From the NCBI GenBank assembly GCA_018716725.1, contig DVJP01000054.1, forward strand, positions 30,075 to 94,074: DNA of 64,000 nucleotides, in the 5' to 3' direction. Made by a program: the position numbers and the translations under genes. Below are positions 3,956 to 59,805 of this stretch, piece after piece (the stretch's first letter is position 1; each line of letters opens with the position of its first letter). The notes under the pieces were generated by a model, which saw only the letters and a program-made list of their open reading frames with translations, was not told where the DNA came from and did not search any database. This DNA is from Candidatus Merdivicinus excrementipullorum. GTDB taxonomy: Bacteria > Bacillota > Clostridia > Oscillospirales > Ruminococcaceae.

Positions 3956-4786
3956 GTGAGAAACATGAGAACTGCCGTTTCTTTTGGCATAAAATGTATC
4001 GGATTTCTGCTGTTGTGGGGGCTTTTGGCCGTGGCGGCCATTCCTTTAAGCGAAACCGCCGCCTTTCTGACGGGAAGCGGCGCATACGCCCAGCTTTGCC
4101 GCAACGGTACCGCCCTTGCAGCCGCCGGGGTTGTCGCCTTCCTGATTTCCAAGACATTCCTGCCGGAGCAGAGCCTCCGCAGACAGATGGGCGCCCGGCC
4201 CGGCGACGGCCTTTGGATGGGGGCCGGATTCGGCGTATTCTGGGCAGCCGGGACGCTGCTTGCCTTCCGGCTGTCCGGCGGGCTGCATTTTATCCGCCAG
4301 GAAATGGCGGTTCAGGATCTGGGCGTCTGGATTGCAGCGTTGGCCTGCGGCGTGCTGACCCAGGGGATCCTGGCCCACGGGCTTTTCTACCCGGCCATGG
4401 AAGGCCAGTTTTCCAGAAATGCCGCTCTGGTTGGCTCCGCCGTTTTATTTGCGGCTTTGCATTTTCCACAATGGAAATACGGCCCCGCCGCCTTTCTCGG
4501 CCTGCTGGCCATGGGGCTTGTCCTCTCCCTGCTGCGCCGGTATTCCGGCGGGATTTTAGCCCCTGCCGCCGCCCATTTTGTGTGGGATTTCGCCGCGGGA
4601 ATCCTTTTTGGCGGGTTCCCATTTGACCCGTACCCCTCTGTCATCCAGATTTCCTTAAACGGCCCGGCGTGGCTGTCCGGCGGGCAGGCCGGCATGATGG
4701 GAAGCCTGCTGACCATGGCCGTCACCTTGGGAGCAGCGGCCCTTCTGGCGCTGTATGTTTCCCGGAAAAAACGGAAAAAAGCGTGA
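3956..4786 (+). CDS. CPBP (CAAX/bacteriocin-processing)-like intramembrane protein, probably lacking the catalytic EExxxR motif
   Basis: Multi-TM; ...TQGILAHGLFYPAMEGQFSRNAALVGSAVLFAALHFPQWKYGPAAFLGLLAMGLVLSLLRRYSGGILAPAAAHFVWDF matches CPBP topology and motif order. ATG alternative at 3965. Confidence 0.75.
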   Translation: MRNMRTAVSFGIKCIGFLLLWGLLAVAAIPLSETAAFLTGSGAYAQLCRNGTALAAAGVVAFLISKTFLPEQSLRRQMGARPGDGLWMGAGFGVFWAAGTLLAFRLSGGLHFIRQEMAVQDLGVWIAALACGVLTQGILAHGLFYPAMEGQFSRNAALVGSAVLFAALHFPQWKYGPAAFLGLLAMGLVLSLLRRYSGGILAPAAAHFVWDFAAGILFGGFPFDPYPSVIQISLNGPAWLSGGQAGMMGSLLTMAVTLGAAALLALYVSRKKRKKA

Positions 4787-4788
4787 AA

Positions 4789-5140
4789 AAAGCCGCCCTT
4801 TGGGGCGGCTTCAGCCTGTCGAAGAAGTAAATATGATTTGGCAAATTGCACAAAGGAGTGTTGTTTGCTGACGCAAATAAGCCGTGAATAAAAGCTTGGA
4901 AAATTCTAACCTGTCATTTTGCTTGCAAAATGACGTGCGCGCGTCATCAAGCCAGCTTGATGACTGCATCCGCGGCGGGTCTGCACGTCATGAATTGATA
5001 CATCAATTCATGACTCCGCTTTTTTTTGTTCGCGCCCGGGGCGCGAAGGAATTGGATTTCGTGCTCTGCGGAGCACGATGGGGGCTTTGCCCCTCAACCC
5101 CACAATTTTTCGAGAAAAATTGAGTAAAGCTTTTTCTTGT
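4789..5140. repeat. Chain-of-hairpins intergenic repeat, copy A
   Basis: Series of inverted repeats: gccgccctttggggcggc; cattttgcttgcaaaatg; gtcatcaagccagcttgatgac; catgaattgatacatcaattcatg; ttcgcgcccggggcgcgaa; gtgctctgcggagcac; ggggctttgcccc; caatttttcgagaaaaattg. Order matches copy B at 21640-21985. Confidence 0.8.
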
Positions 5141-5191
5141 CTCTTTCGTTATGTCTGCAAAAAACGAGGGAGCGCATATGCTCCCTCGTTT

Positions 5192-5917
5192 TTACAACAC
5201 TTTGGACAGGAATTCCTTTGCCCGGGGGTTCTGCGGATTAGAGAAAAAGTCCGCCGGGTTATCCGATTCTTCCATGATAATGCCTTCGTCCATGAACAGA
5301 ACCCGGTTGGCCACTTCCTTAGCGAAGCCCATTTCATGGGTGACGCAGACCATAGTCATGCCGTCGTCCGCCAAATCTTTCATCAGCTGCAAAACCTCTC
5401 CCACCATTTCCGGGTCCAGGGCGGAGGTTGGCTCGTCAAAAAGCATCACGTCCGGGTTCATGGCCAGCGCCCGGACAATGGCGATGCGCTGTTTCTGGCC
5501 GCCGGAAAGCATGGCCGGGTAGGCTTTGGCTTTGTCCGCCAGGCCGATGCGCCCCAGCAGGGTCATGGCCTTTTCCTCGGCCTCCGCTTTGGACTGGAGC
5601 TTCAGGGTGGTGGGGGCCAGGGTGATGTTTTGAAGAATAGTCAGGTGCGGGAACAGGTTAAAGTGCTGGAAAACCATCCCCATTTTCCGCCGGAGCCGGT
5701 CGATGTCGCATTTGGGGGTGTTGATCTGCTCCCCTTCAAACCAGATTTCCCCGGAGGTGGGGGTTTCCAGCAGGTTTAAGCAGCGCAGGAAGGTGCTCTT
5801 TCCCGACCCGGAGGGGCCGATGACTACAACTTTATCCCCTTTGTTGATGGTGGTGGTGATATTCTTTAAAACCTCCAAGCTGCCAAAGGACTTGGTGAGG
5901 CCGTTAATTTCGATCAC
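5192..5917 (-). CDS. Polar amino-acid ABC transporter ATP-binding protein (GlnQ/HisP type)
   Basis: Walker [10 protein letters not shown], signature LSGGQKQR, Walker [16 protein letters not shown]; gives [26 protein letters not shown]. Confidence 0.93.
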
Positions 5918-6644
5918 TTTGACGCAGCCTCCTTTCTAGGCAGGTGACGCCGGCCTGAAGAATCAGTACCAGGACCAGGTAAACGACCGCCACGGCAATC
6001 AGCGGCAGGAACGCTTCATAGGTGCGGCTGCGGATAATGTCGCCGCCTTTGGTCAGATCCTGAAGCCCGATGTAGCCCGCCACGGAAGTTTCCTTTAACA
6101 GGGTAATCATCTCGTTGCCCAGGGCGGGAAGGACGTTCTTGACCGCCTGGGGCATGATGATTTTCCAGGTGGTCTGGGTGTAGTTTAGCCCTAAGCTGCG
6201 GCCGGCTTCCATCTGGCCCGGGTCGATGCTCATGATGCCGGAACGAAAGATCTCCGCCACATAGGCCGCCGAGTTTAAGCCGAAGGCAATAATGGCCACC
6301 AGGATAATGTTGATGTCCACCGCGGCAAAGATGACGAAGTAAATAATCATCAGCTGGACCACCACAGGGGTGCCCCTGATAACAGTAAGGTAGAGCTTGG
6401 CAATGGCGTTTAAAAATTTCAGGTTGCCCGTTTTGTCGTGGGTGGTGCGGACGAGCGCGATGAGGAAGCCCAGGACGACGCCTAAAATCAAGGCCCCCAG
6501 CGTAATCAGCAGTGTGTTGGTCAGGCCGGTGGTCAGGTATTTCCAGCGGTAATCCTTGATGAAGTTATCATAAAAGGAATTCCCGAAATCCACAAACCAG
6601 GCCGCAATTGAATCCAGCAAGTCAATCCCCCTTTTCTGATACAA
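5904..6644 (-). CDS. Amino-acid ABC transporter permease (HisM family)
   Basis: [27 protein letters not shown]...[19 protein letters not shown]...[61 protein letters not shown]. True start may be an internal TTG near 6620. Confidence 0.92.
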
Positions 6645-6699
6645 GGCAAGGGACAGAAGGATAAAGCCTGCTTCTGTCCCTTTTCTGATAACTCAAATC

Positions 6700-7617
6700 T
6701 TACTCGGCGGCTGCGTCTTTGACGATAACCACCTGGATGCCGGTGCAGTAAGAATCCGTGAAGTTCACGTTTTCTTCCCGGTCAGGGGTAACGGTCATGC
6801 CGGCCGCGCCGAAGTCCGCTTTGCCGGACTGGACGGCGGGGATAATGGAATCAAAGGCGATGTCCGTGATTTCCAGCTCCATGCCCAGCTTGTCGCAGAT
6901 AGCCCGGGCAAAATCTACATCCAGGCCCACGATTTTATCTTCGCCGGAAGAACTGTCGTGATACTCATAGGGAGGGAACTCGGCGTTGGTGGCCATGGTC
7001 AGGGTGCCGTTGTAGGTGATCCCTTCGGGGGAGGTGTAAGGCTCGGCGCCTTCCACGCCGTTAATGTAGTAATCCAGCAGCTGCTGGAGGGTGCCGTCCT
7101 CTTTCAGCTCCCCAATGGCGGTGTTGAACTGCTCCAAAAGCTCGGTGTTGTCTTTGGCGATGCAGATAGCGTAATCCTCTTCCGTGTAAGCGGAGTCCAG
7201 AATCACCAGGCCCTCATTTTCCTCTACAAAGACCTTGGCAGGCTCGTTGTCGATAACCACGGCGTCCAGCTTATCCTGGAGCAGGGCCTGGACGGCTTCC
7301 ATGCCCTTGTTGTAGCGGGTCAGCTCCGCGTTGCCCAGCAGGCCGTCCGCAATATCGCCGTCGATGTACTGGTCGCCGGTGGTGCCCAGCTGCACGCCGA
7401 TGCGGGCGTCGGTGAGAACCTCAGTGGGATCTTGGGTCGCTGCATTGCCGGAAGTTTCAGCGGTGGATTCTTCGGCGGAAGATTCCGCAGCGGAAGATTC
7501 CGCGACGGAGGACTCGGTTTCAGCGGAGGAATTGCTGCCGGTATCGCCGGAGCAGGAAGCAAGGGAAACGCACAAGGCCGCAGCCAGGAACGCGGCCAGA
7601 ATCTTTTTCAGTTTCAT
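6700..7617 (-). CDS. Transporter substrate-binding lipoprotein (amino-acid ABC, SBP family 3)
   Basis: MKLKKILAAFLAAALCVSLASCSGD lipobox, Ser/Ala/Glu-rich linker, ...YEYHDSSSGEDKIVGLDVDFARAICDKLGMELEITDIAFDSIIPAVQSGKADFGAAGMTVTPDREENVNFTDSY. Confidence 0.9.
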   Translation of the reverse strand: MKLKKILAAFLAAALCVSLASCSGDTGSNSSAETESSVAESSAAESSAEESTAETSGNAATQDPTEVLTDARIGVQLGTTGDQYIDGDIADGLLGNAELTRYNKGMEAVQALLQDKLDAVVIDNEPAKVFVEENEGLVILDSAYTEEDYAICIAKDNTELLEQFNTAIGELKEDGTLQQLLDYYINGVEGAEPYTSPEGITYNGTLTMATNAEFPPYEYHDSSSGEDKIVGLDVDFARAICDKLGMELEITDIAFDSIIPAVQSGKADFGAAGMTVTPDREENVNFTDSYCTGIQVVIVKDAAAE

Positions 7618-8124
7618 ATTCAAACCCATCCTTTGTTCTGATTTTTCATTTGGTATATTCCATACTTTAGCACATCCTTCGTGGAATTGCAAGGGGATTT
7701 TTCAAAAAATCTGCATATATTTCAAAGTTTATACACAATGACAGCTTTCCTTTTGCGCCGCAGCTGGTTTTTGTAGGTTTTACAAATAGATCTTGTTTGA
7801 ATATAAGTGAATATATCAAGATGATTTTGAATAAAACCTGAATATTTGCAGTTTAATTTGGAATATTCTGTATATTCATTTTGCGATTGCGTCCCGTCAA
7901 AAAATTGGAAACTTTCTTGTTGATTTTTTTGCATAAATTCTTTGTAAAAATCTTTACAATAGAATGATATTTTGATAGAATGAATTTGTATCGTGTGCAT
8001 ACGGCTGCATGAACACGCGATAGGCCGCCGGGTTTCCCGGCACGGAGGGGATTATCAAAAAAAGAGAGAAAAAGAAAAACCAGCAAAACAGAGAAGAGCG
8101 ATTGATCATAAAGGAGGTGCTGGA

Positions 8125-10413
8125 GTGTTCTTTATCGAGCTGCCGGAATCAGTAAAACAGGCGTATGCGGAGCGTGGCGTTTCTGAGGCGGATATCCGCT
8201 ACACGGCGAAAGCCGATGTTTCCAAAGAAAACCAATATGAAGATATTTACCTGGCTTTGACAGAATACGGGCTGTGCGTCCTCTGGGGGCACGAAAAATT
8301 TGTGGACCAGAAGGGAAAGGAAACGGAAATCCGTTTCCAAGTGAGCAGCTACCGGGAAATTCCCCTTGGGGACATCCGGGAAATTGTCATCGACAGGTTG
8401 TATACCGTATCTTCTTTCATTGTCAAGACAGAGAAGGAGGAGATTCTGGTATGCAGGCTGTCGATTTCGTTTGTAGGGCTGTTTGAGAAATTCAAGAGCC
8501 GGATTTTGGCCATGCGGGACCACGAACCCATTGACGACAGCGGCTTAAAAGACGAGCATAAATGCTGCCCCAAATGCAAGCGCCCTTACCCCAACCAGGA
8601 GCGGAAGGTCTGCCCCAACTGCTTAAGCAGCCGGGCGTCCTTTCTGCGGCTTTTAAAGGAATATCTTTCCTTTAAAAAAGAAGCGGCGCTGATTTTTGTC
8701 ATGATGCTTTTGAGCAGCGTGCTGACCCTGATTGTCCCGCTGTTCAGCTCCCAGATGTTCTACGACCAGGTTCTGACCCCGCCGGGGGATGGGACCGGGC
8801 GGTTTTATGGGATGCTTTTGCAGATGATTCTGGCAATCTTTGCCATCAAGCTGTTTTCCACGGCTTTCAGTTCCATGTACGGCATTGTCCTCAGCAAAAT
8901 TTCCTGCCAGGTGCTCCACAATCTGCGGGTGAAGATTTTTTCGTCCATGCAGCGGCTTTCGGTGAACTTTTTCGCCAGCAAGGCCACCGGCACTTTGATG
9001 ACCCGCATTGACGACGACGCCGACTGGCTTTACTGGTTCTTTGTGGACATTGTGCCCATGTACATCGTCAGCGGCCTGACCTTAGTGGGGCTGATTATCG
9101 TCATGTGCACCATCAGCCTGCCCCTGACCCTGCTGATTTTTGCCTCCACCTTAGCGGTGGGATTTCTGATTACCCGGGCGGAAAAGCGCTTAAAGCAGCT
9201 GCAAAGGAAGCAGCACCGGGCCATCCGCTCCATGAAATCCACTGTTACGGATTCTTTGGGCGGCCAGAAGGTGGTCAAATCCTTTGCCCGGGAGGAGCAG
9301 GAAGTACACCGGTTTGCCGGGAAAAACCAGGGGTACTGGCAGTCCCGGATGAATATCGGCTACTATAACGCCGCCCATTTCCCGGTGATGCGGATGATTT
9401 ACCGGATGTCCGAGGTGGTGTTCCTAGGCTTAGGCGCCATTTTCGCCATCCAGGGGCATTTGACCCTAGGGGGGCTGACGGCCCTGGTGGCCTATGCCGA
9501 CATGACCTTAAACTGCATCCAGTACTTTTTAAACTCCGCAAACCCGGCGGCCAGGGCCATGGATTCCGCCTCCCGGATGTTTGAAATCCTGGACACGGAG
9601 CCTTCCGTCCGGGAAAAGGAAAACCCGGTGCGGATGCCCAAAATCAAGGGGAATATCTCCGCCCGGAACATCAGCTTTGAGTACGAAGTGGGACGGCCGG
9701 TGATTAAAAACGTCAGCTTCGATGTGGAAGCGGGCCAGATGATCGGCCTGGTGGGCAAGACCGGCGCGGGAAAATCCACCATCATCAACCTGATTTCCCG
9801 GCTTTACGACGTCACCGAAGGGGAGATCACCATTGACGGGGTGGACATCCGGGACATTGCCTTTGAAGACCTGCGGAAAAACATCGGCATCGTCACCCAG
9901 GAAACCTACCTGTTTATGGGGACCATTGCTGACAACATCCGCTACGCCAAGCCGGACGCTTCCCTAGAGGAGGTTGTGGCGGCGGCCAAGGCGGCTTTCG
10001 CCCATGACTTTATCGCCCGGTTCCCGGAAGGATACGACACCAAGGTCGGGAACGGCGGCGTGCAGCTTTCCGGCGGCGAAAAACAGCGGATTTCCATCAC
10101 CCGGGCCATTTTGCAGAACCCGCCCATCCTGATTCTCGACGAGGCCACCGCCGCCATGGACACCCAGACGGAACGGAACATCCAGACGGCTATTGAAAAG
10201 CTGCGGGCCGGGAAAACCATTATTTCCATTGCCCATAGGCTTTCCACTTTGCGGGACGCCGACCGGCTGGCGGTCATCGACGACGGGAAGCTCTGCGAAA
10301 GCGGCACCCATCAGGAGCTGCTGGAAAAACGGGGCGTGTACTTTAACCTGCACAAGATTCAGCTGGATTCTTTGAAGTTTATCAACGCCGGCGGCGAGCC
10401 GCCGCTGGCATAG
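8125..10413 (+). CDS. ABC exporter (TMD-NBD) with N-terminal beta-rich domain and zinc ribbon
   Basis: GTG start at 8125 after aaggaggtgctgga; CPKCKRPYPNQERKVCPNC zinc ribbon; GKTGAGKST Walker A, LSGGEKQR signature, ILILDEATAAMD Walker B. Confidence 0.88.
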   Translation: MFFIELPESVKQAYAERGVSEADIRYTAKADVSKENQYEDIYLALTEYGLCVLWGHEKFVDQKGKETEIRFQVSSYREIPLGDIREIVIDRLYTVSSFIVKTEKEEILVCRLSISFVGLFEKFKSRILAMRDHEPIDDSGLKDEHKCCPKCKRPYPNQERKVCPNCLSSRASFLRLLKEYLSFKKEAALIFVMMLLSSVLTLIVPLFSSQMFYDQVLTPPGDGTGRFYGMLLQMILAIFAIKLFSTAFSSMYGIVLSKISCQVLHNLRVKIFSSMQRLSVNFFASKATGTLMTRIDDDADWLYWFFVDIVPMYIVSGLTLVGLIIVMCTISLPLTLLIFASTLAVGFLITRAEKRLKQLQRKQHRAIRSMKSTVTDSLGGQKVVKSFAREEQEVHRFAGKNQGYWQSRMNIGYYNAAHFPVMRMIYRMSEVVFLGLGAIFAIQGHLTLGGLTALVAYADMTLNCIQYFLNSANPAARAMDSASRMFEILDTEPSVREKENPVRMPKIKGNISARNISFEYEVGRPVIKNVSFDVEAGQMIGLVGKTGAGKSTIINLISRLYDVTEGEITIDGVDIRDIAFEDLRKNIGIVTQETYLFMGTIADNIRYAKPDASLEEVVAAAKAAFAHDFIARFPEGYDTKVGNGGVQLSGGEKQRISITRAILQNPPILILDEATAAMDTQTERNIQTAIEKLRAGKTIISIAHRLSTLRDADRLAVIDDGKLCESGTHQELLEKRGVYFNLHKIQLDSLKFINAGGEPPLA

Positions 10414-10561
10414 TCAGCAAGCTTGCTTGATGACGCGGCGCAGCCGCACAGCCACGCGCCGGGCTTTGGCTGACGCAAACAAGTTGCGTCTCTGTCAGAG
10501 GCCCCCCGTTCCCAGCGATGGAACGGCGAGCCCGTATTTTTCAAGGCTAGATGAACCGGAT

Positions 10562-10588
10562 TGTAGGGGAGCGCATTGCGCGCCCGCC
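10562..10588. repeat. TGTAGGGG-family half unit
   Basis: tgtaggggagcgcattgcgcgcccgcc; internal palindrome gggcgcgc-type stem. Confidence 0.6.
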
Positions 10589-10686
10589 GCCTTTTCAGGA
10601 TGTTTTCGGTGATACCCGGGCGGCCGGACTGCCCCAATCATACTGGCGGCATAAACGGAAGGAATCCGCTTCAGAAAGGAGCTTTT

Positions 10687-11184
10687 ATGAGCGATTTTGC
10701 ATATCTATCCCCAGGGGAGCTGCGTTTTTCCCTGGATCAAAACGGCATCCTCTCCCTGGATTACCAGGGAAGCCATTATGAGGGGGTACAGCTGGTTCGG
10801 CTGTTTCCCTTCCAGAACCCGGACGGGATGCTGTCCGTTTCCGTACAGGACGGGGACGCCCGGAAGGAGCTGGGGATCATCGAATCCCTTTCCCAGCTTG
10901 CCCCGGCCCAACGGGAAACCCTGCAAAACTATCTGCGCTACAAATACTTTATCCCTAACATCGAAAAAATCGGGAAAATCGAGGAGAAGCTGGGGTATGT
11001 TTACATGGACATCACCACGGTTTTAGGCCCCAAAACTATCTGCATCGCCGACGTGACCTCCAACCTGCGGCTGGTGGGGGAATCCTCCGTCAGCATTGTG
11101 GACGTCCAGGGCAACCGGTACGCCATTGAGGATATTGACAAACTGAGCCGGGAAAACCGGCAGAAAATCGAGCTTTATATTTAG
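10687..11184 (+). CDS. DUF1854 domain-containing protein
   Basis: MSDFAYLSPGELRFSLDQNGILSLDYQGSHYEGVQLVRLFPFQNPDGMLSVSVQDGDARKELGIIESLSQLAPAQRETLQNYLRYKYFIPNIEKIGKI...; matches DUF1854 pattern; RBS agaaaggag. Confidence 0.85.
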   Translation: MSDFAYLSPGELRFSLDQNGILSLDYQGSHYEGVQLVRLFPFQNPDGMLSVSVQDGDARKELGIIESLSQLAPAQRETLQNYLRYKYFIPNIEKIGKIEEKLGYVYMDITTVLGPKTICIADVTSNLRLVGESSVSIVDVQGNRYAIEDIDKLSRENRQKIELYI

Positions 11185-11211
11185 TCCTCCGACAGAAAGG
11201 GAGGGATTTTG

Positions 11212-13392
11212 ATGAATTTTCAAGCATCCGGGCTGGAAGAAGTGCGGCCCCTGTTAAAGGGGGAGGCCGTTTACAGCCTGGGATTCAGCCTGGACGGCTG
11301 CGGAAGGCCGGTAAGAGGCGTCTGCGCCGCCACCAGGACGGAGCTTTGCGTGTTCCGGGATGGGGCGGAGGTGTTCCGCTGTCCTTTGGACGAGGTGGAG
11401 GAATACACCACCACCCAGCTGGTGGGAAGCGGAACCTTCGGCATTGTCCGGAACGGGAAACCGGAACAGCTGTGCATCTGCACCCAAAGCGAACTAAACG
11501 CCTTCGCCGAGCTGGGGAAGCTTTTGGAATATCACAAGGAAACCGGCGTGTTCCCGGAGCCGGACGGGGAAGAGGAGGTCAAAACCTGCCCCAAATGCGG
11601 CAGCATTCTGCCCGAGGGCAGCAGCCTTTGCTTCCGGTGCGCCCCAAAAGGTAAGTATCTGGCCCGGGCCATCGGCCTGGCCGGGCGGTACAAATGGTCC
11701 CTGCTGGGGGCGGTTTTAGCTACCGCCATGAGCCAGCTTTTATGGATTGTGTACCCTTATATGCAGCGGATCGTCATTGACGATTACATCACCCCCAAAA
11801 ACCAGGACTACAAAAGCCTGCTGATCCTGCTGGGCTGTTACCTGCTGTTCCCGGCGGTCATGATGCTCTTGGAGTTTTTCAACGAACGCTGCACAACGAA
11901 AGTCTCCATTTCCGTGGGGCGGGACCTGCGGGGGGAGCTGTTCCAAAGAATCCAGGAGCAGTCCATGAAATCCATTACCAAACGTCCCGCCGGCGAACAG
12001 ATTAAGCGGATTACCAACGACACGGAAAAGCTCCAGGAATTTGTGGCCAACTACGGCAAGGAAGCCGCGGTCCAGGTATTGTCCACCCTGGTGATCCTGA
12101 CGGTTATGCTGATCCTCAACTGGAAGCTGACGATTCTGGTGCTGATCCCGGTGCCGTTAGCAGTTTTGGCTACTCAAATCATCTTTAAATATATCCATCG
12201 AAAGTATCAGATGGTTTGGAACCGGTTTTCCCAGTCGGAATCCACCCTCCACGACATTTTAAGCGGGGTCATGGTGGTGAAGGCCTACGGCAGCGAAAAG
12301 CGGGAGATCGCCCATTACACCGGATATTCGGAGCGGTTCGCCAAGAGCATGTACCGGGCGGACAAATTCTGGTTTTTGGTGTTCCCCATTATCGGCTTTA
12401 TCATCACCATGGGGGAATACTTTTACCTGTATTTCGGCGGCCAGCAGGTCTTAGTAGGGGGCATGACCCTGGGGGCGCTGATCCAGTTCGGCGCGTATAT
12501 CGGCATGGTGTACGGCCCTCTGCGCTGGATTATCCAGCTGCCCCGGTATGTTGCCGAGGTGGCGGTCAGCGCCGCCAAGATTTACGAGGTCATCGATGAG
12601 AAGGAGGATGTTGCCGACCAGGAAAACCCGGTGGAACTGGATATCCAGGGGAAGGTCACCTTTGACAACGTGGGCTTCGGCTACAAAGTTTACAAGCCGG
12701 TTCTCAAAAACATTTCCTTTGAAGTGCAGCCCGGGGAAATGATTGGCATTGTGGGGCCTTCCGGCGTGGGAAAATCCACCCTCATCAACCTGATTATGAG
12801 GCTTTACGACGTAAGCTCCGGCTCCATCAAAATTGACGGGGTGGATTTGCGGGACATTTCCCAGCATTCCCTCCGGAGCCAGATCGGCGTGGTGCTCCAG
12901 GAAACCTATCTCTTTGAAGGGACGGTGCTGGACAATATCCTCTACGCCAAACCGGACGCCACTATGGAGGAAGTAGTGGCGGCGGCCAAAACCGCCAACG
13001 CCCACGACTTTATCTGCAAAATGCCCAACGCCTATCAGGAATATATCGGCAACAAGGGCTATAAGCTGTCCGGCGGCGAAAAACAGCGCATCGCCATTGC
13101 CAGGGCCATCCTGCGGAACCCCCGCATCCTGATTTTGGACGAAGCCACCGCCTCCCTGGACACAGAAACGGAAAAGCTCATCCAGGAGGCTTTGGGGCGG
13201 CTCACCCAGAACCGCACCACCTTCGCCATCGCCCATCGGCTTTCCACCCTTCAGCACGCCGACCGGCTGGTGGTGCTGGATAAGGGGCGGATCGCCGAAA
13301 TCGGCACCCATATGGAACTTCTCCGCAATAAATCCGTTTATTACAACCTGGTTATGGCCCAGCGCCAGACCTCCCGCCTGTCTAAAGAATAA
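11212..13392 (+). CDS. ABC exporter (TMD-NBD) with N-terminal domain and zinc ribbon, partner of 8125-10413
   Basis: CPKCGSILPEGSSLCFRC zinc ribbon; GPSGVGKST Walker A; LSGGEKQR; ILILDEATASLD. Confidence 0.88.
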   Translation: MNFQASGLEEVRPLLKGEAVYSLGFSLDGCGRPVRGVCAATRTELCVFRDGAEVFRCPLDEVEEYTTTQLVGSGTFGIVRNGKPEQLCICTQSELNAFAELGKLLEYHKETGVFPEPDGEEEVKTCPKCGSILPEGSSLCFRCAPKGKYLARAIGLAGRYKWSLLGAVLATAMSQLLWIVYPYMQRIVIDDYITPKNQDYKSLLILLGCYLLFPAVMMLLEFFNERCTTKVSISVGRDLRGELFQRIQEQSMKSITKRPAGEQIKRITNDTEKLQEFVANYGKEAAVQVLSTLVILTVMLILNWKLTILVLIPVPLAVLATQIIFKYIHRKYQMVWNRFSQSESTLHDILSGVMVVKAYGSEKREIAHYTGYSERFAKSMYRADKFWFLVFPIIGFIITMGEYFYLYFGGQQVLVGGMTLGALIQFGAYIGMVYGPLRWIIQLPRYVAEVAVSAAKIYEVIDEKEDVADQENPVELDIQGKVTFDNVGFGYKVYKPVLKNISFEVQPGEMIGIVGPSGVGKSTLINLIMRLYDVSSGSIKIDGVDLRDISQHSLRSQIGVVLQETYLFEGTVLDNILYAKPDATMEEVVAAAKTANAHDFICKMPNAYQEYIGNKGYKLSGGEKQRIAIARAILRNPRILILDEATASLDTETEKLIQEALGRLTQNRTTFAIAHRLSTLQHADRLVVLDKGRIAEIGTHMELLRNKSVYYNLVMAQRQTSRLSKE

Positions 13393-13631
13393 GCGGCTTG
13401 AAATCCCCGGGGCCATAGGCTCTGGGGGTTTTTCCTCAAAAACACGCGCATTGGCAAGCGCCAGCTCTTAAAATGCCGGTACTGTCCTTTTTGGTTCAAA
13501 AAGCAGGCCGGGAAATCCGTAAACCGTGTCAAAAAAGGGTAAAATCAGCTTGGGCCTGTCTTGCTTTTCCAAAATAAACGTGCTACAATGAGTATTACTT
13601 CGGATAATATTCTGCGGAGGTTGATTTGAGT

Positions 13632-14525
13632 ATGTTCACCAAAAAGACAAATTTCAAGGCCATGAAGGCGGACGACGTGGTTGCGGCCTACCGGAAAAAC
13701 GTCCTGATCTTCTGGATTTGCCATGGCCTGACGGCAGTGATCCTGGTGGGGGTGGCCGTTGCTCTGCTTATGCAAAAAATCACGCTGTTCAACGCGGCTC
13801 TCAGCGCTTTTTTCCTGGTGGTTCTCAATTATCTGCTTTATGTGGGCCGTACTTACCAGTACCACATGCTGAACCAGATTATGAACCAATACTGCGACCC
13901 GGTAAAAGCTGAGAAAGTATTTCAAAAGCTCCATGACAGCAAGGTAAAGAAAAACCATTCCCTGATCAATATTGCCCGGGCGCAGTGCTACCAGGGGAAA
14001 TTTGCGGAGGCTTTGGATACCCTTCAGAACGTTTCCAGGCCAAAGCCCGACTCTATCCTTGTTTTCCTGTATTACAATGTTATGGCCCTTTGCTATGAAG
14101 GCTTAGGACAGATGGACATGGTCATCGACGTCCGGGAGCGGGCCAAAAAGGTGATGAATGGGCTGAAGGAAAATTCTCCCAACCTCCGCAACGGCCAGCA
14201 GCTTTTGACCATTATCGACGGCATCCTGACCTTCCACGAGGGCAGCTTCACCCGCAGCCGGGAAATTTACGAGGAGCTGTTTGAAAATTCCTCCTTCCCC
14301 TTAAGCCGCATGACGGTTCTGTGCAAGCTGGCGAAAATGGAGCAGATGACCGGTTCCACCCGCAGCGCTATCGACCACTGCGAATATATCCTGGAATCCG
14401 GCGGGACAACCTTTTATGTAAAAGAGGCGAAAGAAATCCTGGCTCTCTGTAAGCCCAAGAAGAAAACAGCGGAACAAAAGGAGGATGCCCAGGATGGAAC
14501 TGAGCCAGATCAGGCGGAGAATTGA
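13632..14525 (+). CDS. Hypothetical membrane protein with C-terminal TPR-like region
   Basis: Two N-terminal hydrophobic helices (VLIFWICHGLTAVILVGVAVALL; FNAALSAFFLVVLNYLLYV) then helical repeats (AQCYQGKFAEALDTLQNV...YNVMALCYEGLGQMDMVIDV). Confidence 0.7.
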   Translation: MFTKKTNFKAMKADDVVAAYRKNVLIFWICHGLTAVILVGVAVALLMQKITLFNAALSAFFLVVLNYLLYVGRTYQYHMLNQIMNQYCDPVKAEKVFQKLHDSKVKKNHSLINIARAQCYQGKFAEALDTLQNVSRPKPDSILVFLYYNVMALCYEGLGQMDMVIDVRERAKKVMNGLKENSPNLRNGQQLLTIIDGILTFHEGSFTRSREIYEELFENSSFPLSRMTVLCKLAKMEQMTGSTRSAIDHCEYILESGGTTFYVKEAKEILALCKPKKKTAEQKEDAQDGTEPDQAEN

Positions 14526-15276
14526 CGAGCTGAATGGGGAACTGCTCCGGCTTTTTGAGGAACGGATGGCTTTGTGCGCCCAGGTGGCGGAGGAAAAGAA
14601 GAAAAACGGGATGGAGGTTTTCGCCCCAGTCCGGGAAGTGGAAATTTTAAACCAGGTGCGGCAGAAGGCTTCCCCGGAACTGGTGGATTATGACGTTTCC
14701 TTCTTTAACGGGCTTATGTCCCTAAGCCGGCAGTACCAGTCCCAGCTTCTGAACCTGGGGCCGGCGTCGGCGGGGATACCGTCCGGCATCCGGACAGAGC
14801 GGCTGGAGCTGTTCCCTCTGGATATGCAGGCGGCTCCCGCCGTGTATTCCCTGACCTCTAACCCGGAGGTTGCCCGTTATATGCGGTTTGACACCCATAC
14901 CTGCCCGGAACAGGCGGAGGAGCTGATCCGGGAATGGACCTCCGGCGGGAACTTATCTTATGTTATTACCCAAAATGATGGGAAATTTGTGGGGGTATTC
15001 GGCATACAGCCGGACAAAGAATCTCCCGGGGTCCTGAACATCTCCCTGTTCCTGTCGCCGGACCACTGGGGCCAGGGATACTGCGGGGAAATCACCGAAC
15101 TGGCGGTCAAAATGGCCCGGGATATTCTCCGAGGGGAATTGGTGCGGGCTTATGTCAGGGACGCTAACATTCCTTCCTGCAAGGCTCTGGAAAAGGCGGG
15201 CTTTACAAAAAGCCGGGAATTTACCGCTGAGAACGGCCCTGTGTTTGTGTATGAATACCGGCTGGAACGGCAGTAA
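14494..15276 (+). CDS. Chorismate mutase (AroQ class)-GNAT N-acetyltransferase fusion
   Basis: N-term MELSQIRRRIDELNGELLRLFEERMALCAQVAEEKKKNGMEVFAPVREVEILNQV (AroQ helix pattern); C-term IRTERLELFPLDMQAAP...VFGIQPDKESPGVLNISLFLSPDHWGQGYCGEITELAVKMARDIL...VRAYVRDANIPSCKALEKAGFTKSREF (GNAT). Confidence 0.82.
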   Translation: MELSQIRRRIDELNGELLRLFEERMALCAQVAEEKKKNGMEVFAPVREVEILNQVRQKASPELVDYDVSFFNGLMSLSRQYQSQLLNLGPASAGIPSGIRTERLELFPLDMQAAPAVYSLTSNPEVARYMRFDTHTCPEQAEELIREWTSGGNLSYVITQNDGKFVGVFGIQPDKESPGVLNISLFLSPDHWGQGYCGEITELAVKMARDILRGELVRAYVRDANIPSCKALEKAGFTKSREFTAENGPVFVYEYRLERQ

Positions 15277-15335
15277 TTTTTGGGTATGAGGATGCTCCAA
15301 AGGCTAATGCAGCGTTATCAGATCAAAACTCCGGA

Positions 15336-15371
15336 AAACCCGGCTGGCTTTTAAAAAAGCCAGCCGGGTTT
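15336..15371. terminator. Bidirectional rho-independent terminator
   Basis: aaacccggctggcttttaaaaaagccagccgggttt between convergent genes. Confidence 0.9.
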
Positions 15372-15399
15372 CGCGTGCCGCTATGCTTTTTCAAAAGAA

Positions 15400-15822
15400 T
15401 CAGCAGTACCCCATTTTTTCCAGAAGTTGGCGCACGTGCCATATCTTGCGGTAGACAGAGGTGCGGTTTACGCCAAGCTGGCGGGCGATTTCCGAAACGG
15501 CGTAGCCATCCAGCAATCGCCGCGCAATGTGCTCCAAATCCTTGGGCAGGGAACGGAGCGCCTCGTCCGCTTCCAGTTCGAGCTGGACCTCGTTCATGCT
15601 GCCGCCTTCATAATAGCCGCCCATGTTCTTTGGATCCTGGGCCTCCAGGGAGCAATGGCGGCGGGTTTCTTTATGCTGGATGTTGTACTCCTGCCGGTCC
15701 AATTCGCAGAGCTTTAAAATCCAGTCTGCTGTTTGCCCCGAAAAACTGCTCCGCGTTACTGCGGCGGTTTCCCCTGTGGCAAAGAAATAGGTGTACTGAT
15801 CGTTTGTCTGGTTCCTTTTCAT
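15400..15822 (-). CDS. Sigma-70 region 4/HTH-like DNA-binding protein
   Basis: ...ADEALRSLPKDLEHIARRLLDGYAVSEIARQLGVNRTSVYRKIWHVRQLLEKMGYC. Confidence 0.7.
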   Translation of the reverse strand: MKRNQTNDQYTYFFATGETAAVTRSSFSGQTADWILKLCELDRQEYNIQHKETRRHCSLEAQDPKNMGGYYEGGSMNEVQLELEADEALRSLPKDLEHIARRLLDGYAVSEIARQLGVNRTSVYRKIWHVRQLLEKMGYC

Positions 15823-16034
15823 GGTACATGGATTCCTCCTGGCTGCGGCGCCGGCCAGCCGTTTATGTGATATTCTGATTTTATCAGGAAATGATCTCTC
15901 TGTCTTTCAAAACACCGCGTCCGGATGTTTTAAAAATCACGATATTTTTCATAATTCATATTGTAAATATTCTTTTTATCAAGTATACTGGGATTAATGT
16001 TTGAGAGAATTACAAATAAAGGAGGAACGCAGGG

Positions 16035-17087
16035 ATGAGAACGCAGTCGGAAACAAAATCGGAGCAGATTCAGGCCGTCAAGGAACGCCTAAACCAGGAA
16101 TACAACAAATTTGCAAACAATGGAGGGACGTTATATTCGCTGCATAAGATTCTCAATGAGAGACAGGGCTTCGAGTTAAACTACGATACCCTGAGAAAAA
16201 CCTTAAACCCCAATTCATCCACCCTGGATTTCTTTTGCGTGCTGGCCCTTTGCCGGTATTGGAAGCTGGATACGGCCTATATCTTATCTCCCCCGGGAAA
16301 TACCCAAAAGCCCATGCCGCCTGCTGAGACTATGGTGGATTCTATTAAATTTAAAGCGCTGGACGATCCGGCATACCTGGGAACCTACTACGGTTTTTTA
16401 TTCTCTAACAAAAAAGACAATTCTGACCTGCACCGGTTATGCCTGAAAATAGAACCTTCCCAAGGGGGCGGCTTTGCCGCAGCTTTGACCGTGGAAAGCA
16501 ATGTTGTGGATAAGGACGGCGTCCGGCCGCTGAGAAAAGAGCTTCACGGCATCCCCATTCTTTCTGCATTCAACAGCAATATTTTTATGACTCTGACAGA
16601 CGATATGGGAAATTTCTTTTTCCTGTATATGAATTATAAGAAATATATTACGCCTCGGGTCTTTTATCGGAAAGGGGTCGCCGTCACCTCCGCCGCTACG
16701 GATGAGCGGGAACCCGTTATGCAGTCTTTTGTCTTGTTTGACCGCCCGATTCCAGAGGATAAGCTTTGCTATATTCCCGGCCTTTTGCTTCCGCCCCAGG
16801 ATTCCTGCCCCATTACAGAGGAGGCGTTGAACACGCTGAAGAGGGAGCATTCAGCTGTGGCCCGGTTTGCAGAGGAATTTGATTACATGATCAGGGAGCA
16901 CCGGGAGACGGTTTATGATGTCAATGAAATTTCAATCCTTGCGGAAAAATCGTCCATGAGCAGGGAGGAGCGCTTCAAGGCGCTGTCTTTGCTGAAAGAG
17001 AGAGCGTTAGCCGCCAACAAGTTCTTTTTTACCTCGAACTTGACAGAGAGCGTTGAGTTTGTCAGGGATTATCTGCTTACGCCATAA
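16035..17087 (+). CDS. Uncharacterised protein with N-terminal HTH-like region
   Basis: 350 aa; MRTQSETKSEQIQAVKERLNQEYNKFANNGGTLYSLHKILNERQGFELNYDTLRKTLNPNSSTLDFFCVLALCRYWKLDTAYILSP; RBS aaaggagg. Confidence 0.65.
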   Translation: MRTQSETKSEQIQAVKERLNQEYNKFANNGGTLYSLHKILNERQGFELNYDTLRKTLNPNSSTLDFFCVLALCRYWKLDTAYILSPPGNTQKPMPPAETMVDSIKFKALDDPAYLGTYYGFLFSNKKDNSDLHRLCLKIEPSQGGGFAAALTVESNVVDKDGVRPLRKELHGIPILSAFNSNIFMTLTDDMGNFFFLYMNYKKYITPRVFYRKGVAVTSAATDEREPVMQSFVLFDRPIPEDKLCYIPGLLLPPQDSCPITEEALNTLKREHSAVARFAEEFDYMIREHRETVYDVNEISILAEKSSMSREERFKALSLLKERALAANKFFFTSNLTESVEFVRDYLLTP

Positions 17088-17090
17088 ACA

Positions 17091-17130
17091 AAAGGGAACC
17101 GTCTGCTTTATCTGCGGACGGTCCCTTTTC
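17091..17130. terminator. Rho-independent terminator
   Basis: aaagggaaccgtctgctttatctgcggacggtcccttttc. Confidence 0.85.
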
Positions 17131-17257
17131 TCTTTTGAGCGATGCCCGTAATGTGATTTTTGGGAATATCGCATTATTAATTATAAAAAATATGCATTTA
17201 TCAATGTGTTTATGTAAACTCTACCATTACTTACACTAATGGTAGGAGGTTGAATCG

Positions 17258-17602
17258 ATGCAAGAAAAAAAGCAAATGAATGCAGAAATCGGCGCGCGGA
17301 TTAAAGAAGAACGAGAAAAGGCAAGACTGACCCAGGAACGCTTTTCCGAGCTGATCGGGCTGGGACCAAAAAGCGTGTCCGCTTTTGAGCGGGGAGCTGT
17401 GGGAATTTCATTTACCACTCTCAAAAAAATCTGTCAGGTGCTGTCTGTGTCCAGCGACCAGATCCTGTTTGGGAAAACAGAAGCCGACGGCAATGATTTG
17501 ACGGAGTTAGTCCATCGGCTGGAACGTCTTTCCCCCAAACAGTACGCCATCACAAAGGAAGTGATTTTTAAACTTTTAGAGGCGTTTTCTTTAGAGGAAT
17601 AA
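17258..17602 (+). CDS. XRE-family HTH transcriptional regulator
   Basis: IGARIKEEREKARLTQERFSELIGLGPKSVSAFERGAVGISFTTLKKICQVLSVSSDQILFG. Confidence 0.9.
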   Translation: MQEKKQMNAEIGARIKEEREKARLTQERFSELIGLGPKSVSAFERGAVGISFTTLKKICQVLSVSSDQILFGKTEADGNDLTELVHRLERLSPKQYAITKEVIFKLLEAFSLEE

Positions 17603-17641
17603 GATTTTGAGCAAGGGTATCTTTTGATCCTTGCTTCTTTT

Positions 17642-17959
17642 TTAGCCTCTGCCCGCCGTTTCTTCTTGCCGGAGTTTTTCCAAATAAGATTTCCGCAGCG
17701 ACTCTAATTCTTGCGAAATTTCCTCCTTTGACTTCTGAGATTCCCGGAACAGCTGGTATTCCCGGCCGGCAAGGGCCTGGTCCAGCAATTCTTCCAACAA
17801 CTCTTCCGGCGTCCTGCACAATACTGCTTCAAAGCTGTCGCAATATGGCTCCTCGTAAAACAATCGAACATATCCCCAAGATGTCTGGAGAACCTGCACG
17901 TTGGATTGTTCTCGTAAGTAATCCCCAAAAGCGTTGATGACCTGCGCATATGTGACCAT
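17642..17959 (-). CDS. Hypothetical protein
   Basis: MVTYAQVINAFGDYLREQSNVQVLQTSWGYVRLFYEEPYCDSFEAVLCRTPEELLEELLDQALAGREYQLF...; plausible codon use, no family recognised. Confidence 0.6.
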   Translation of the reverse strand: MVTYAQVINAFGDYLREQSNVQVLQTSWGYVRLFYEEPYCDSFEAVLCRTPEELLEELLDQALAGREYQLFRESQKSKEEISQELESLRKSYLEKLRQEETAGRG

Positions 17960-18228
17960 GCTGCCGTACGCCCCTTTCTCTATTCTCTTCCCTCAGAGGA
18001 ACTTCTCACCTATAAGCCACGGCAGGAGCCGTTTGTTGCGCTTAAAAGAAAGAATAATTTTTCTGCTTCAGAAATGGTTTTTCATCCAATGAGGGACGTC
18101 TGGAAAAACGGCAGTATTTGGCTTTATTCATTATTGACGAATGCTGCAAAATAGAGTATGCTGTCTATATTGCATCGTTCCATTTGGGATAAAAATGGTA
18201 TACGGAGGGCAAGAAAGGCGGTAATATT

Positions 18229-18669
18229 ATGCATCCGGAAGCAGAAAAATTCCTTATTCGGGTCAAAAGAGCCATGTGCGCCGGCGAAGAGGGAAAAACT
18301 GGATCTTCCCTGCCTGGTTCACGCAGCTGGAAATATGCTGATGGAGAATTTGATTATATGGACACCTGTTTTGGGACGGAGCAATTTACAAGGCAGGAGG
18401 TGTTATGGGAGAAAAAAACGCCTATTTGGGCGGCAAATTATGTGGGACGGATTCTTGGGAAGGATTTTCCGGCAGACTTTTTCCGGGAGGCGCTGCTGGC
18501 GGGATGCTGCCGCTTCCCGTACCGGGGAGCAGAACAGTATGAAAAGGGGGGCTGGATTTATAAATGCGCCGCCAAGGGGGACCCGGATTGGTTCTATGGA
18601 TACGAAGAAATTCTCTACCGGGATCTGCTTATGTATGAATGCGCTTTCCATGGCGGACAGCTCCGATAA
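18229..18669 (+). CDS. DUF5680-like domain protein
   Basis: FLIRVKRAMCAGEEGKTGSSLPGSRSWKYADGEFDYMDTCFGTEQFTRQEVLWEKKTPIWAANYVGRILG. Confidence 0.7.
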   Translation: MHPEAEKFLIRVKRAMCAGEEGKTGSSLPGSRSWKYADGEFDYMDTCFGTEQFTRQEVLWEKKTPIWAANYVGRILGKDFPADFFREALLAGCCRFPYRGAEQYEKGGWIYKCAAKGDPDWFYGYEEILYRDLLMYECAFHGGQLR

Positions 18670-18769
18670 AAGCGGGCATTGACGCAGCAGGGATCGCCTG
18701 ATAAAGGACAACGGGAAAGAGTGAAACAGCTTCGGGACGATCCCCGCTATTTTGAAAGGAAGAATTCAA

Positions 18770-20965
18770 ATGTACTTTAGACCAGTAGAAAAAGTTCAGC
18801 AGTATGAAGGCATTTTTTCCTCATTCCCAGTGAAAACGCCAACCGCAGGGGAGCCGGACGGCCCTCTGTTTGGCAACGGGGACATTGGCGTTGTAGCCGG
18901 CGGAACAGGGGAGGCCCTGACCTTCTGGCTCAGCAAAAATGATTTCTGGAGCTCGGCTAATATCAATCAAAGAGGAGAGCGGCTCTGCGGCGTAAAATGC
19001 CTGGGGACCCTGCGGATCTGCTCTGACGCCTTAAAAGGCGCGTCCTTTTCCGCCCGGCAGAAAATCGGGACGGCGGATGTGGAAATAGAACTCCATACAG
19101 AGGAAAAGGGCCTGCATATCAGCGCTTACGCCCCCTATCAGCAGAGCGCGGTTGTGGTGCGGCTGGAATCCCGGAAAGGCGATATTCCATTAAAAATCTG
19201 TTTGGAACCTATGGAAGATGAAGCCGCCGCCTGCTCCCAAAAAACGGAGGGCAACATGATTACGGCCGCTAAGGAGTATACAGGCGAAAACATGGAATGG
19301 GAAACAAAAGCGGCAGCCGTTTGCCGTATTTTGGAGTGGAATCAGGCAGAAGGCGTTTTGCGGGAAGGGGACAGCCTGACCCTGGCCGCGGCTGTTTATA
19401 CAAACCATGACGCCGCGAATTACCTGGAATTGGCTGAAAAAACCGTGCGTGACGTTACGCCGGAAACACTTACTCAGTACCGGTCTGAACATCTTGGCTG
19501 GTGGAAGGATTTCTGGAACACTTCTGGAATTTCCATTCCCTCGGAGCCGGATGTGGAAAAATTCTGGTATGCGTCCCATTACCTGATGGCCTGCTGCTGC
19601 AAGGAAGGGAAATTCGCCCCGGGTATCTTCGGCAACTGGATTACCACTAATAAGCCCAATTGGCAGGGGGATTATCACCTGAATTATAACTACCAGGCGC
19701 CCTGGTGGGGCGTGTTCTCCTCCAACAAGGTGGCCCTGGCCGACCCCTACGACCAGCCGTTGATGGAGTACATTCCCCAGGCCCGGAAAAACGCCCGGGA
19801 AGAACTGGGCTGCCGGGGGATTTATTCCAAAGTGGGTATTGGCCCCAAAGGCTTAGAAACTGCCCGGATGTATAATCAGGACGGCACGGAAAACCATGAA
19901 GCTCCCTACTGGGGACAAAAATCTAATTCCGCTTATGCGGCGGTAAATATGGTTATGCGGTTTTACAGCACCTGGGACAAAGAATACGCCCGGAAATACG
20001 CTCTGCCGTACCTGCGGGAGACGGCGGATTTTTGGGAAGATTATCTGAAATTCGAGGACGGCCGGTATGTGATTTACAACGACTGCATTCATGAAAACGG
20101 TTATGCCGCCAGGGGGATTTTCGATTGGGTGGATGAAAATACGCCGGACTACAGCGATGATTTTAACCCTATCCTCACTTTGGGGCTGCTGCGGCTGGTT
20201 TTCCGAGGGTTACTTGATATTTCGGAATACTTAGGGGAAGATGAAGGCCGGCGGGAGAAATGGAACCACATCCTCACTCATCTAAGCGATTTCCCCATCC
20301 AGGAAAGGGAAGGGAAAACCGTGTTCCGCTATACGGAACGGGGCATGGACTGGTGCGGCGGCAACAGCCTGGGCATCCAGCATATCTTCCCCGGCGGGTG
20401 CATCGGCCTGTCCTCCGATGAAAAGCTGCTGAAAATTGCCCGGGACACCATTACGGTCATGCACCGCTGGTCCGATTACAACGCTTTCCCCACTTTCTTT
20501 ACAGCGGCGGCCCGGGTGGGATATGACCCGGAAATTATCCTCAGCAAATTCAAGGAACAGTTTTTAAACCACTCTTTCCCCAACCTGTTCATCTATTACG
20601 GCGGCGGTGGGATCGAGTGCTGCAGCGCCGTTCCCAGCTGTATTAACGAAATGCTGTTCCAGAGCCATGAGGGGATTCTGCGGTTCTTCCCAGTATGGGA
20701 TAAAAGGAAGAACGCGTCCTTCTATCAGCTGCGGGGATACGGGGCGTTTGTGGTTTCGGCGGAACTGAAAGACGGCATTGTGGGGGAAATTGACCTGGCA
20801 AGCGAACAGGGACGGCCCTGTACTATCCTCTGCCCCTGGGAACCCGGCATGGTTGTCCTGGAAGATGGAAAGCCCGTTCCCTGCAAAATAAAGGAAATCA
20901 GGGATGGCCAAGCCTATACTTTTGAAACAAGAAAAAACCGCCATTATAAAATTGCATCAAAATAA
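18770..20965 (+). CDS. (alpha/alpha)6-type glycoside hydrolase, GH95/DUF5703-like
   Basis: GPLFGNGDIGVVAGGTGEALTFWLSKNDFW...APGIFGNWITTNKPNWQGDYHLNYNYQAPWWGVFSSNK...CGGNSLGIQHIFPGGCIGLSSDEKLL; start ATG 18770 after gaaagga. Confidence 0.75.
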   Translation: MYFRPVEKVQQYEGIFSSFPVKTPTAGEPDGPLFGNGDIGVVAGGTGEALTFWLSKNDFWSSANINQRGERLCGVKCLGTLRICSDALKGASFSARQKIGTADVEIELHTEEKGLHISAYAPYQQSAVVVRLESRKGDIPLKICLEPMEDEAAACSQKTEGNMITAAKEYTGENMEWETKAAAVCRILEWNQAEGVLREGDSLTLAAAVYTNHDAANYLELAEKTVRDVTPETLTQYRSEHLGWWKDFWNTSGISIPSEPDVEKFWYASHYLMACCCKEGKFAPGIFGNWITTNKPNWQGDYHLNYNYQAPWWGVFSSNKVALADPYDQPLMEYIPQARKNAREELGCRGIYSKVGIGPKGLETARMYNQDGTENHEAPYWGQKSNSAYAAVNMVMRFYSTWDKEYARKYALPYLRETADFWEDYLKFEDGRYVIYNDCIHENGYAARGIFDWVDENTPDYSDDFNPILTLGLLRLVFRGLLDISEYLGEDEGRREKWNHILTHLSDFPIQEREGKTVFRYTERGMDWCGGNSLGIQHIFPGGCIGLSSDEKLLKIARDTITVMHRWSDYNAFPTFFTAAARVGYDPEIILSKFKEQFLNHSFPNLFIYYGGGGIECCSAVPSCINEMLFQSHEGILRFFPVWDKRKNASFYQLRGYGAFVVSAELKDGIVGEIDLASEQGRPCTILCPWEPGMVVLEDGKPVPCKIKEIRDGQAYTFETRKNRHYKIASK

Positions 20966-20985
20966 AAACAGAAAACCTGTAAAGG

Positions 20986-21012
20986 CAGGACCCTCCAGTA
21001 AACGGAGGGTCC
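20986..21012. terminator. Hairpin terminator downstream of glycoside hydrolase
   Basis: ggaccctccagtaaacggagggtcc immediately followed by the IS-end motif tcagcctgtcgaaaaa. Confidence 0.65.
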
Positions 21013-21657
21013 TCAGCCTGTCGAAAAAGGTCACCGAAAGGTGGCCTTTTTCTCGTAATGAGAGCGAAAATGCGGTATAATGGTGTAGGGTGATAAAAAA
21101 TGCTGGTAAAAAACGCAGAAAATACGCGTTCTTTCCACTTGTTATACCCGTCCCAAAAGCAAAGAGAACGGCCATCCCTGGCGGGCGTATGTGTATGACG
21201 AATACTTTGATGATGTGATCTGCCCGGAGTACCGTGCGCTGCATTATTCCACAGGAATGTGTACTGAAAATGCCAAGTGTGAGAAAACAGTCTTGCGTCA
21301 TGTCTGGCAGAACTATGTGGAGATGGCGGTATACAAAGAGCTGTACCGTCTGCGAAAAGAGAAGATTGAGCGTGTGTTCGCCGATGCGAAGGAGAAGCAC
21401 AGTATGCGTTACACGCAGTACAGAGGCTTGGCTCAGGTAACAAACTGGGTGAAGCTTAAATTTGCTGCCATGAATCTGAAAAAACTGGCCACCTGGAAAT
21501 GGAATAGCCGCCATCCGGCGCCGGATGGCGGCAAACGCTCCGGATTCCGCGAAAATATTCCGGACATTTCGCTTCTTTTTCCCTTTTCGTTCCGATTTGC
21601 AAACCAAAAACTCCTCTGGCTTGATTGCACCAGCAGGTTTTTCGACAGGCTGAAGCC
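21013..21657 (+). mobile_element. Decayed IS1182-like insertion element (N-terminal coding part deleted)
   Basis: Ends are inverted copies of cagcctgtcgaaaaa/tttttcgacaggctg. Inside is the transposase C-terminus YTRPKSKENGHPWRAYVYDEYFDDVICPEYRALHYSTG...TVLRHVWQNYVE...LYRLRKEKIERVFADAKEKHSMRYTQYRGLAQVTNWVKLKFAAMNLKKLATW. Confidence 0.8.
21136..21520 (+). pseudogene. Truncated IS1182-family transposase
   Basis: ERVFADAKEKHSMRYTQYRGLAQV...LKFAAMNLKKLA is the C-terminal transposase signature; only about 120 aa remain. Confidence 0.8.
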
Positions 21658-59622: not shown

Positions 59623-59663
59623 AATACATCGAATATCCCCGCCAAAACCGGCAGGAACTTTTA

Positions 59664-59775: not shown

Positions 59776-59805
59776 ATAAAATTTTAAAGGTGTGAATGGA
59801 TGCGC

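Follow-up and report, generated by a model that had tools for sequence, protein, structure and literature searches.

Introduction

When a chain of hairpins changes its stems in complementary pairs from one copy to the next, is it an RNA or a DNA structure that is being preserved? The question is raised by two non-coding stretches, copies A and B, in the window, by which we mean the whole 64,000-nucleotide stretch of the Candidatus Merdivicinus excrementipullorum genome that was analysed. Each consists of consecutive hairpins, P1 to P9, with conserved spacers between them (Table 1). Covariation of this kind is usually taken as proof of a functional RNA. A sequence-only reading had paired the two copies and proposed an element defined by its structure, either an RNA or a cruciform-forming DNA. 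Both copies lie where it placed them, and the stems that it listed are present and perfectly paired. As to its alternative, the evidence leans towards DNA, but the reading did not foresee a mobile element, most likely of IS1182 type, that sits in terminators.

Results

A many-copied family whose halves differ in distribution

Searched against the 2.78-Mb host genome, the core pattern of P6 matched 35 times forward and 34 times in reverse and the reversed control pattern never, most copies being matched twice because the core is near-palindromic. From six genomes of the genus Ca. Merdivicinus we extracted 78 distinct copies (39 of the 78 from the host genome), and two covariance models were used, R1 for the 5' half (P1-P5) and R2 for the 3' half (P6-P9). 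The R1 search found 55 copies in the host genome (G000), 46 in G004 (Ca. Merdivicinus intestinigallinarum), 16 in G002 and 0-3 in each of the four other congeners, and had no match among 54 further genera of the order. R2 found at least 64 copies in the host genome and at least 64 in G004; of 61 genomes it matched 22, belonging to 16 genera that include other families of the order, and it was also found patchily in other families of the class. These distributions indicate a genus-specific 5' half, and in P7-P8-P9 a module that is older or has spread horizontally. Both copies first noticed are thus real, but in the host genome their family numbers at least 55 (R1) to 64 (R2) and not two; with more than 50 copies there, a two-copy coincidence was rejected.

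A known Rfam RNA was also rejected, since no Rfam family matched the element at the gathering score and relaxed thresholds gave only chance-level matches. So was a protein-coding cause of the linked bases, the P8 variants shifting the frame and stops being present (read by eye), and a phage or plasmid element, phage records being without a match and one plasmid record matching partially.

Table 1. Positions in the window of copies A and B, their parts and their immediate surroundings
Feature	Position	Strand	Basis or remark
Terminator hairpin AAGCCGCCCTTTGGGGCGGCTT of the upstream Rce1-like gene (3956-4786)	4790-4811	+	target or target duplication, outside the element
Copy A, left terminal repeat CAGCCTGTCGAAGAA	4812-4826	+	sequence; consensus CAG..TGTCGAAAAA
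Copy A, element	4812-5149	+	right terminal repeat lost or decayed
Copy A, P1 hairpin TTTGC-TGAC-GCAAA	4864-4877	+	invariant pairs, alignment A2
Copy A, P2 weak hairpin TTGGA-AAAT-TCTAA, contains G-U	4896-4909	+	sequence; not called by RNAalifold
Copy A, P3 GTCATTTTGC/GCAAAATGAC	4913-4934	+	alignment A2; loop inversions among copies
Copy A, P4, 22-nt palindrome (4943-4964) nested in loop	4935-4974	+	
Copy A, P5 probable terminator stem, 28-nt palindrome nested (4987-5014), then T-tract	4975-5027	+	
Copy A, P6 TTCGCGCCCGGGGCGCGAA	5029-5047	+	core pattern; alignment
Copy A, P7 TCGTGCTC-TGCG-GAGCACGA	5059-5078	+	alignment
Copy A, P8 GGGGC-TTT-GCCCC and candidate third strand CCCC (5098-5101)	5081-5102	+	covariation
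Copy A, A5102 after P8	5102	+	covaries with loop T5087
Copy A, P9 CAATTTTTC/GAAAAATTG	5103-5122	+	alignment
IS1182-family IS remnant, directly upstream of copy B	21014-21652	+	left end 21014-21028, right end 21638-21652
Transposase C-terminal fragment in the IS remnant	~21149-21496	+	66 bits to NF033551, below the 270-bit cut-off
Terminator hairpin AAGCCGCCCTTTGGGGCGGCTT, identical to 4790-4811	21653-21674	+	
Copy B, element	21675-21975	+	both ends decayed
Copy B, P3 ATTTGATTTTAC/GTAAAATCAAAT	21781-21807	+	
Copy B, P5 probable terminator GCGAGCC-TGCG-GGCTCGC and T-tract	21824-21846	+	
Copy B, P6 TTCGCGCCCGAGGCGCGAA	21854-21872	+	core pattern
Copy B, P7 TCGCTTTC-TGAG-GAAAGCGA	21884-21903	+	
Copy B, P8 GAGGGC-CTT-GCCCTC and candidate third strand ACCC (21926-21929), A21930	21906-21930	+	
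Copy B, P9 CCAGCTTTT/AAAAGCTGG	21931-21950	+	

The hairpin array had been recognized correctly, but its first hairpin in each copy, AAGCCGCCCTTTGGGGCGGCTT, is the target terminator and lies outside the element; in G004 the orthologous element likewise has this hairpin on its left. Genes neighbouring the copies encode an Rce1-like protease, an ABC ATPase and a biotin protein ligase. In G004 the Rce1-like gene (left of A) and the biotin ligase gene (right of B) are adjacent, with one element and a duplicated terminator between them, whereas in the host genome a block of ~16.5 kb (window 5140-21640) separates copies A and B, which suggests an element-associated rearrangement. Additional palindromes sit in the loops of some helices, among them P4 and P5 of copy A. 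A second family of small palindromes (approximately GTCRTSAA..TTSAYGAC, 20-28 nt) is found in the P4, P5, P7, P8 or P9 loops of some copies and also stands alone outside the element; in the window it occurs, for example, at 29083 and as the two nested palindromes of copy A.

Ends, duplicated terminators and an intact partner

Complete copies start with CAG..TGTCGAAAAA and finish with its complement. This sequence occurs at 32 sites in the host genome, mostly as element ends, and nearly all of them are flush with a perfect rho-independent terminator. Young copies measure 323-358 bp between the ends and contain no gene and no transposase. The whole terminator hairpin (23-35 bp) is present as a direct repeat at both ends of the element, the palindrome measuring 35 bp beside an element of 358 bp (L068), ~30 bp beside 358 bp (L079) and 23 bp beside 323 bp (L077). 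In contig pairs split inside an element the palindromes were identical at 31 and 25 bp and near-identical at ~28 bp. Copies A and B have lost one or both ends. Two joined-flank searches for an empty site with a single terminator returned no intact uninterrupted site, one locus being rearranged and the other absent from the relatives.

An intact IS1182-family IS (L243) was found in the congener G003, with an open frame of 478 codons (396 bits against the 270-bit cut-off of NF033551), ends CAGTCTGTCGAAAAA/TTATTCGACAGACTG, and an exact 31-bp palindromic duplication on both sides. The terminal repeats of the element equal the ends of this IS and those of an N-terminal transposase fragment (L054) in the host genome. 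Insertion of IS1182-family elements into palindromic targets has been published, and in the model for IS1272, a member of that family, joining at the 5' foot of a stem-loop leads to duplication of the whole stem-loop (PMC5678879). Since an IS in a congener shares both the ends and the hairpin duplication, the most likely identity of the element is an IS1182-type MITE, whose transposition we infer from these features. The IS1182-family elements themselves (L243, L244 and the remnant in the window) have a terminator-like hairpin just inside the left end (at 21029-21052 in the window), e.g. GGTCACCGAAAGGTGGCCTTTTT, possibly an insulation device.

With respect to neighbouring genes, 29 of 62 copies stand between convergent, 28 between co-directional and 5 between divergent pairs. 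In co-directional pairs the element points with transcription in 12 cases and against it in 16, i.e. in no preferred direction. Such placement fits terminator targeting, not a strand-specific cis element.

Paired changes almost free of intermediates

In fixed alignments 99.6-99.7% of the cells pair, as against 80-85% when columns were shuffled and 38-52% when partners were slid, which bears out the claim that the element is defined by its structure. The stem swaps reported between copies A and B are likewise genuine, complementary pairs replacing complementary pairs: in alignments A2 and A3 both sides were changed in 180 cells (P1-P5) and 203 cells (P6-P9), 383 in total, and one side in only 3. 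Across genera, P7-P9 displayed 277 double and 2 one-sided changes. The only Rfam match in the window is an FMN riboswitch (59663-59780, minus strand, 116 bits), and its homologues served as the control family. In a 29-sequence alignment with the RNAalifold pair table, by which such counts were also made for the element, the FMN control from the same clade gave 84 double and 16 one-sided changes (Fisher p = 2e-9 versus the element). The 3002 pairs in six hairpin windows comprised 2963 Watson-Crick, 23 G-U, 13 A-C and 3 other pairs, and the near-equality of G-U and A-C is as predicted by strand-symmetric, DNA-level maintenance.

The loop of P3 occurs both as a given sequence and as its reverse complement (GCAAGC 25/GCTTGC 6, GCTTTGC 5/GCAAAGC 4, GTAAAC 4/GTTTAC 1, ACTTCGT 2/ACGAAGT 1), and 3 flips were seen among 15 closely related pairs, one copy being common to all three. 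Palindrome-mediated strand exchange leaves such inverted loops as its footprint. Recent stem mismatches do exist, for example in P7 of L100.

Exchange of whole hairpins at orthologous loci

Orthologous elements in the host genome, G004 and G002 have P1-P4 in common and differ in P5-P9 by whole hairpins with abrupt edges. Stretches of 33-63 nt in the exchanged blocks are identical to other copies, which is what ectopic conversion would predict. Flanks of the orthologues that exchange whole hairpins are 90-99% identical; the orthologue pair L004/L100 displayed no hairpin exchange. In five pairs between the host genome and G004, identity was 98.7% in P1-P4, 79% in P5-P9 and 74% at the 5' edge, with 93.7-94.1% in the flanks of 500-600 bp. 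P1-P4 are conserved even in copies with decayed ends, and we argue that this reflects a constraint beyond mobility. The element is reversed in the sister species at four orthologous loci (L003/L078, L031/L089, L035/L121 and L037/L108), which could reflect an in-place inversion or separate insertions into one and the same terminator.

Taken together, the lack of one-sided G-U intermediates, the inverted loops, the neutral orientation and the block exchange speak more for exchange or correction in the DNA than for classical selection on RNA. Template switching can create and maintain perfect hairpins (PMC8794818), and correction by this route would account for both the near-absent one-sided changes and the inverted loops.

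Signals at the RNA level

Of 70 copies, 55 fold better as the plus strand than as the minus strand, TGCG loops of the UNCG type cap P5 and P7, and a T-rich tract (at least 6 T in 8) follows P5 in 75 of 75 copies. The loop and the T-tract make P5 a likely internal intrinsic terminator, and thus a part of the element that would act at the RNA level. Plus-strand folding, TGCG loops and the kept T-tract point to an RNA role for at least part of the element, and count against the explanation that we prefer. Scanned for promoters, the surroundings of copy A showed no consensus match, and those of copy B two minus-strand matches, close to the chance expectation.

A candidate third strand at P8

Column analysis revealed that the bases 3' of P8 covary with its purine arm in parallel register. 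At a fixed offset the rule (G to C; A to T or A) holds for 423 of 448 positions in 112 copies, against a mean of 308 and a maximum of 334 in 2000 shuffles, and an antiparallel register, tried as a control, fails. Counted over 17 distinct haplotypes, the rule holds for 55 of 68 positions (mean 41; 0 of 2000 shuffles as high). Moreover, the base after the third strand complements the middle base of the P8 loop (C-G 82, T-A 28, 2 exceptions). Because on the plus strand A faces A or T and G faces C, the minus strand reads the purine-motif triplex code, G-GC and A/T-AT (PMC4666352), which suggests that P8 and its 3' spacer may form an intrastrand DNA triplex. Intrastrand triplex motifs have been linked to unstable loci (PMC4666352). 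The third strand that follows the rule is only ~4 nt long, below the 6-nt minimum of ITxF motifs. Three bases after P9 (ACC, ACG, AGT; window 5103-5125 and 21931-21953) also vary with the middle bases of the P9 stem, in a manner that fits neither Watson-Crick pairing nor a triplex register.

Discussion

We consider it probable, though by no means assured, that the element is a non-autonomous IS1182-type MITE whose hairpins are maintained at the DNA level. According to this explanation an IS1182-family transposase, acting in trans, would join the element ends at the feet of a palindrome, in this case a rho-independent terminator, and the whole target hairpin would be duplicated on both sides, so that neighbouring genes keep their terminators. 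The internal tandem array of hairpins, with the putative terminator among them, would insulate the element from transcription. Arm complementarity would be maintained chiefly in the DNA: blocks of whole hairpins are swapped between copies, as the mosaics at orthologous loci show, and replication or repair templated by the hairpin may correct or invert the palindromes. P8, with the spacer 3' of it, follows a third-strand code and may fold as an intrastrand DNA triplex, and P1-P4 is under additional constraint. As judged from sequence, the roles of the element would be mobility and, as a candidate function, insulation.

The strong covariation would conventionally be read as compensatory mutation under selection for pairing, in a family of structured non-coding RNAs, independent or in 3' UTRs, spread by transposition. 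Better folding of the plus strand, the UNCG-type loops, the invariable T-tract, near-identity of P1-P4 between species and the occurrence of P7-P9 across the class would all fit such a family. However, selection on RNA pairing leaves one-sided intermediates, as in the FMN riboswitch (16 of 100 changed cells), and the element has 3 of 386; G-U pairs scarcely outnumber A-C pairs, loops are inverted, copy A lacks a consensus promoter, and orientation to co-directional genes goes either way. We therefore regard the RNA family as unlikely. Remove selection on structure altogether, and gene conversion with template switching in a dead MITE family could by themselves make all of the covariation; one-sided changes near zero, inverted loops and mosaics are what such neutrality predicts, and template switching is able to create and maintain perfect hairpins (PMC8794818). 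It is less well suited to conserved features that are not palindromic, namely the P1-P4 spacers, the T-tract, the third-strand rule and the P7-P9 module with its class-wide conservation, and we think pure neutrality rather improbable.

The 98.7% identity of P1-P4 in orthologous, apparently immobile copies is above the expectation for a dead MITE and counts against our best explanation. Set against ~94% in the flanking genes at fixed loci, it would suit a DNA structure that serves the host, as REP/BIME repeats are proposed to do (supercoiling, nucleoid, or insulation between convergent genes), once mobile and now domesticated, as would the enrichment between convergent genes and the third-strand constraint at P8. 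Yet the hairpin content of a locus differs between sister species, copy number ranges from 0-3 to 55 within one genus, and terminator targeting alone explains the convergent enrichment, so that domestication appears doubtful to us, if conceivable.

Our results add complexity to covariation-based RNA discovery insofar that the copies of this element, in a setting where DNA-level maintenance is favored, stand as a warning. Being both paralogous and orthologous, they also offer a natural data set in which DNA-level correction and exchange of palindromes can be separated from RNA selection. The duplication of the target terminator would represent an insertion strategy that leaves the neighbouring genes terminated, and P8 with its spacer is a testable candidate for a DNA triplex in vivo.

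Among known systems the IS1182 family (NF033551; IS1272 and relatives) is closest in that the terminal repeats match an intact congener IS, the target is palindromic, and models of IS1272 relatives include duplication of the whole hairpin as an outcome (PMC5678879). The element differs in its 323-358 bp, without transposase and with an internal hairpin array, and IS1272 replaces the hairpin whereas the element duplicates it. By analogy it resembles the MITEs BOX/RUP of pneumococci, bcr1 of Bacillus cereus, ERIC and Correia/NEMIS, which are small, intergenic, high-copy and hairpin-rich, and mobilised in trans as the element is proposed to be; unlike these, it swaps whole hairpins with essentially no one-sided intermediates, targets terminators, and has one half that is patchy across the class. 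As in REP/BIME, palindromes are clustered between genes, and the small palindromes nested in its loops are similar to REP units; the element has, in contrast, IS1182-type ends and target duplications. According to PMC3733652, the marks of REP/BIME are a RAYT gene and a tag, GTAG or CGTC. Rfam structured RNAs likewise have a consensus secondary structure with covarying stems, but the element has no gathering-score match among them.

The ITxF motifs of Holder et al. 2015 (PMC4666352) share with P8 and its spacer a purine arm, a pyrimidine arm and a parallel third strand; P8 with the spacer would correspond to class III and the complementary strand to class I (PMC4666352). Dissimilar are the short third strand, the position within a mobile hairpin array, and the kind of support, which here is covariation. 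It is a tentative and rather doubtful extension of our explanation that P7-P8-P9 is a class-wide DNA module, with a triplex at P8, carried on terminator-targeting mobile elements, in which hairpins act as cassettes, palindromes are corrected at the DNA level, and covariation arises without RNA selection.

One further locus is of note with regard to distribution. The flanks of one copy in the congener G005 (L062, contig C11) are 99.85% identical to those of a copy in the host genome (L006, contig C11), the two being distinct species-level genomes, and outside this locus G005 has only 3-4 element copies; the contig is possibly misbinned, or the transfer possibly recent.
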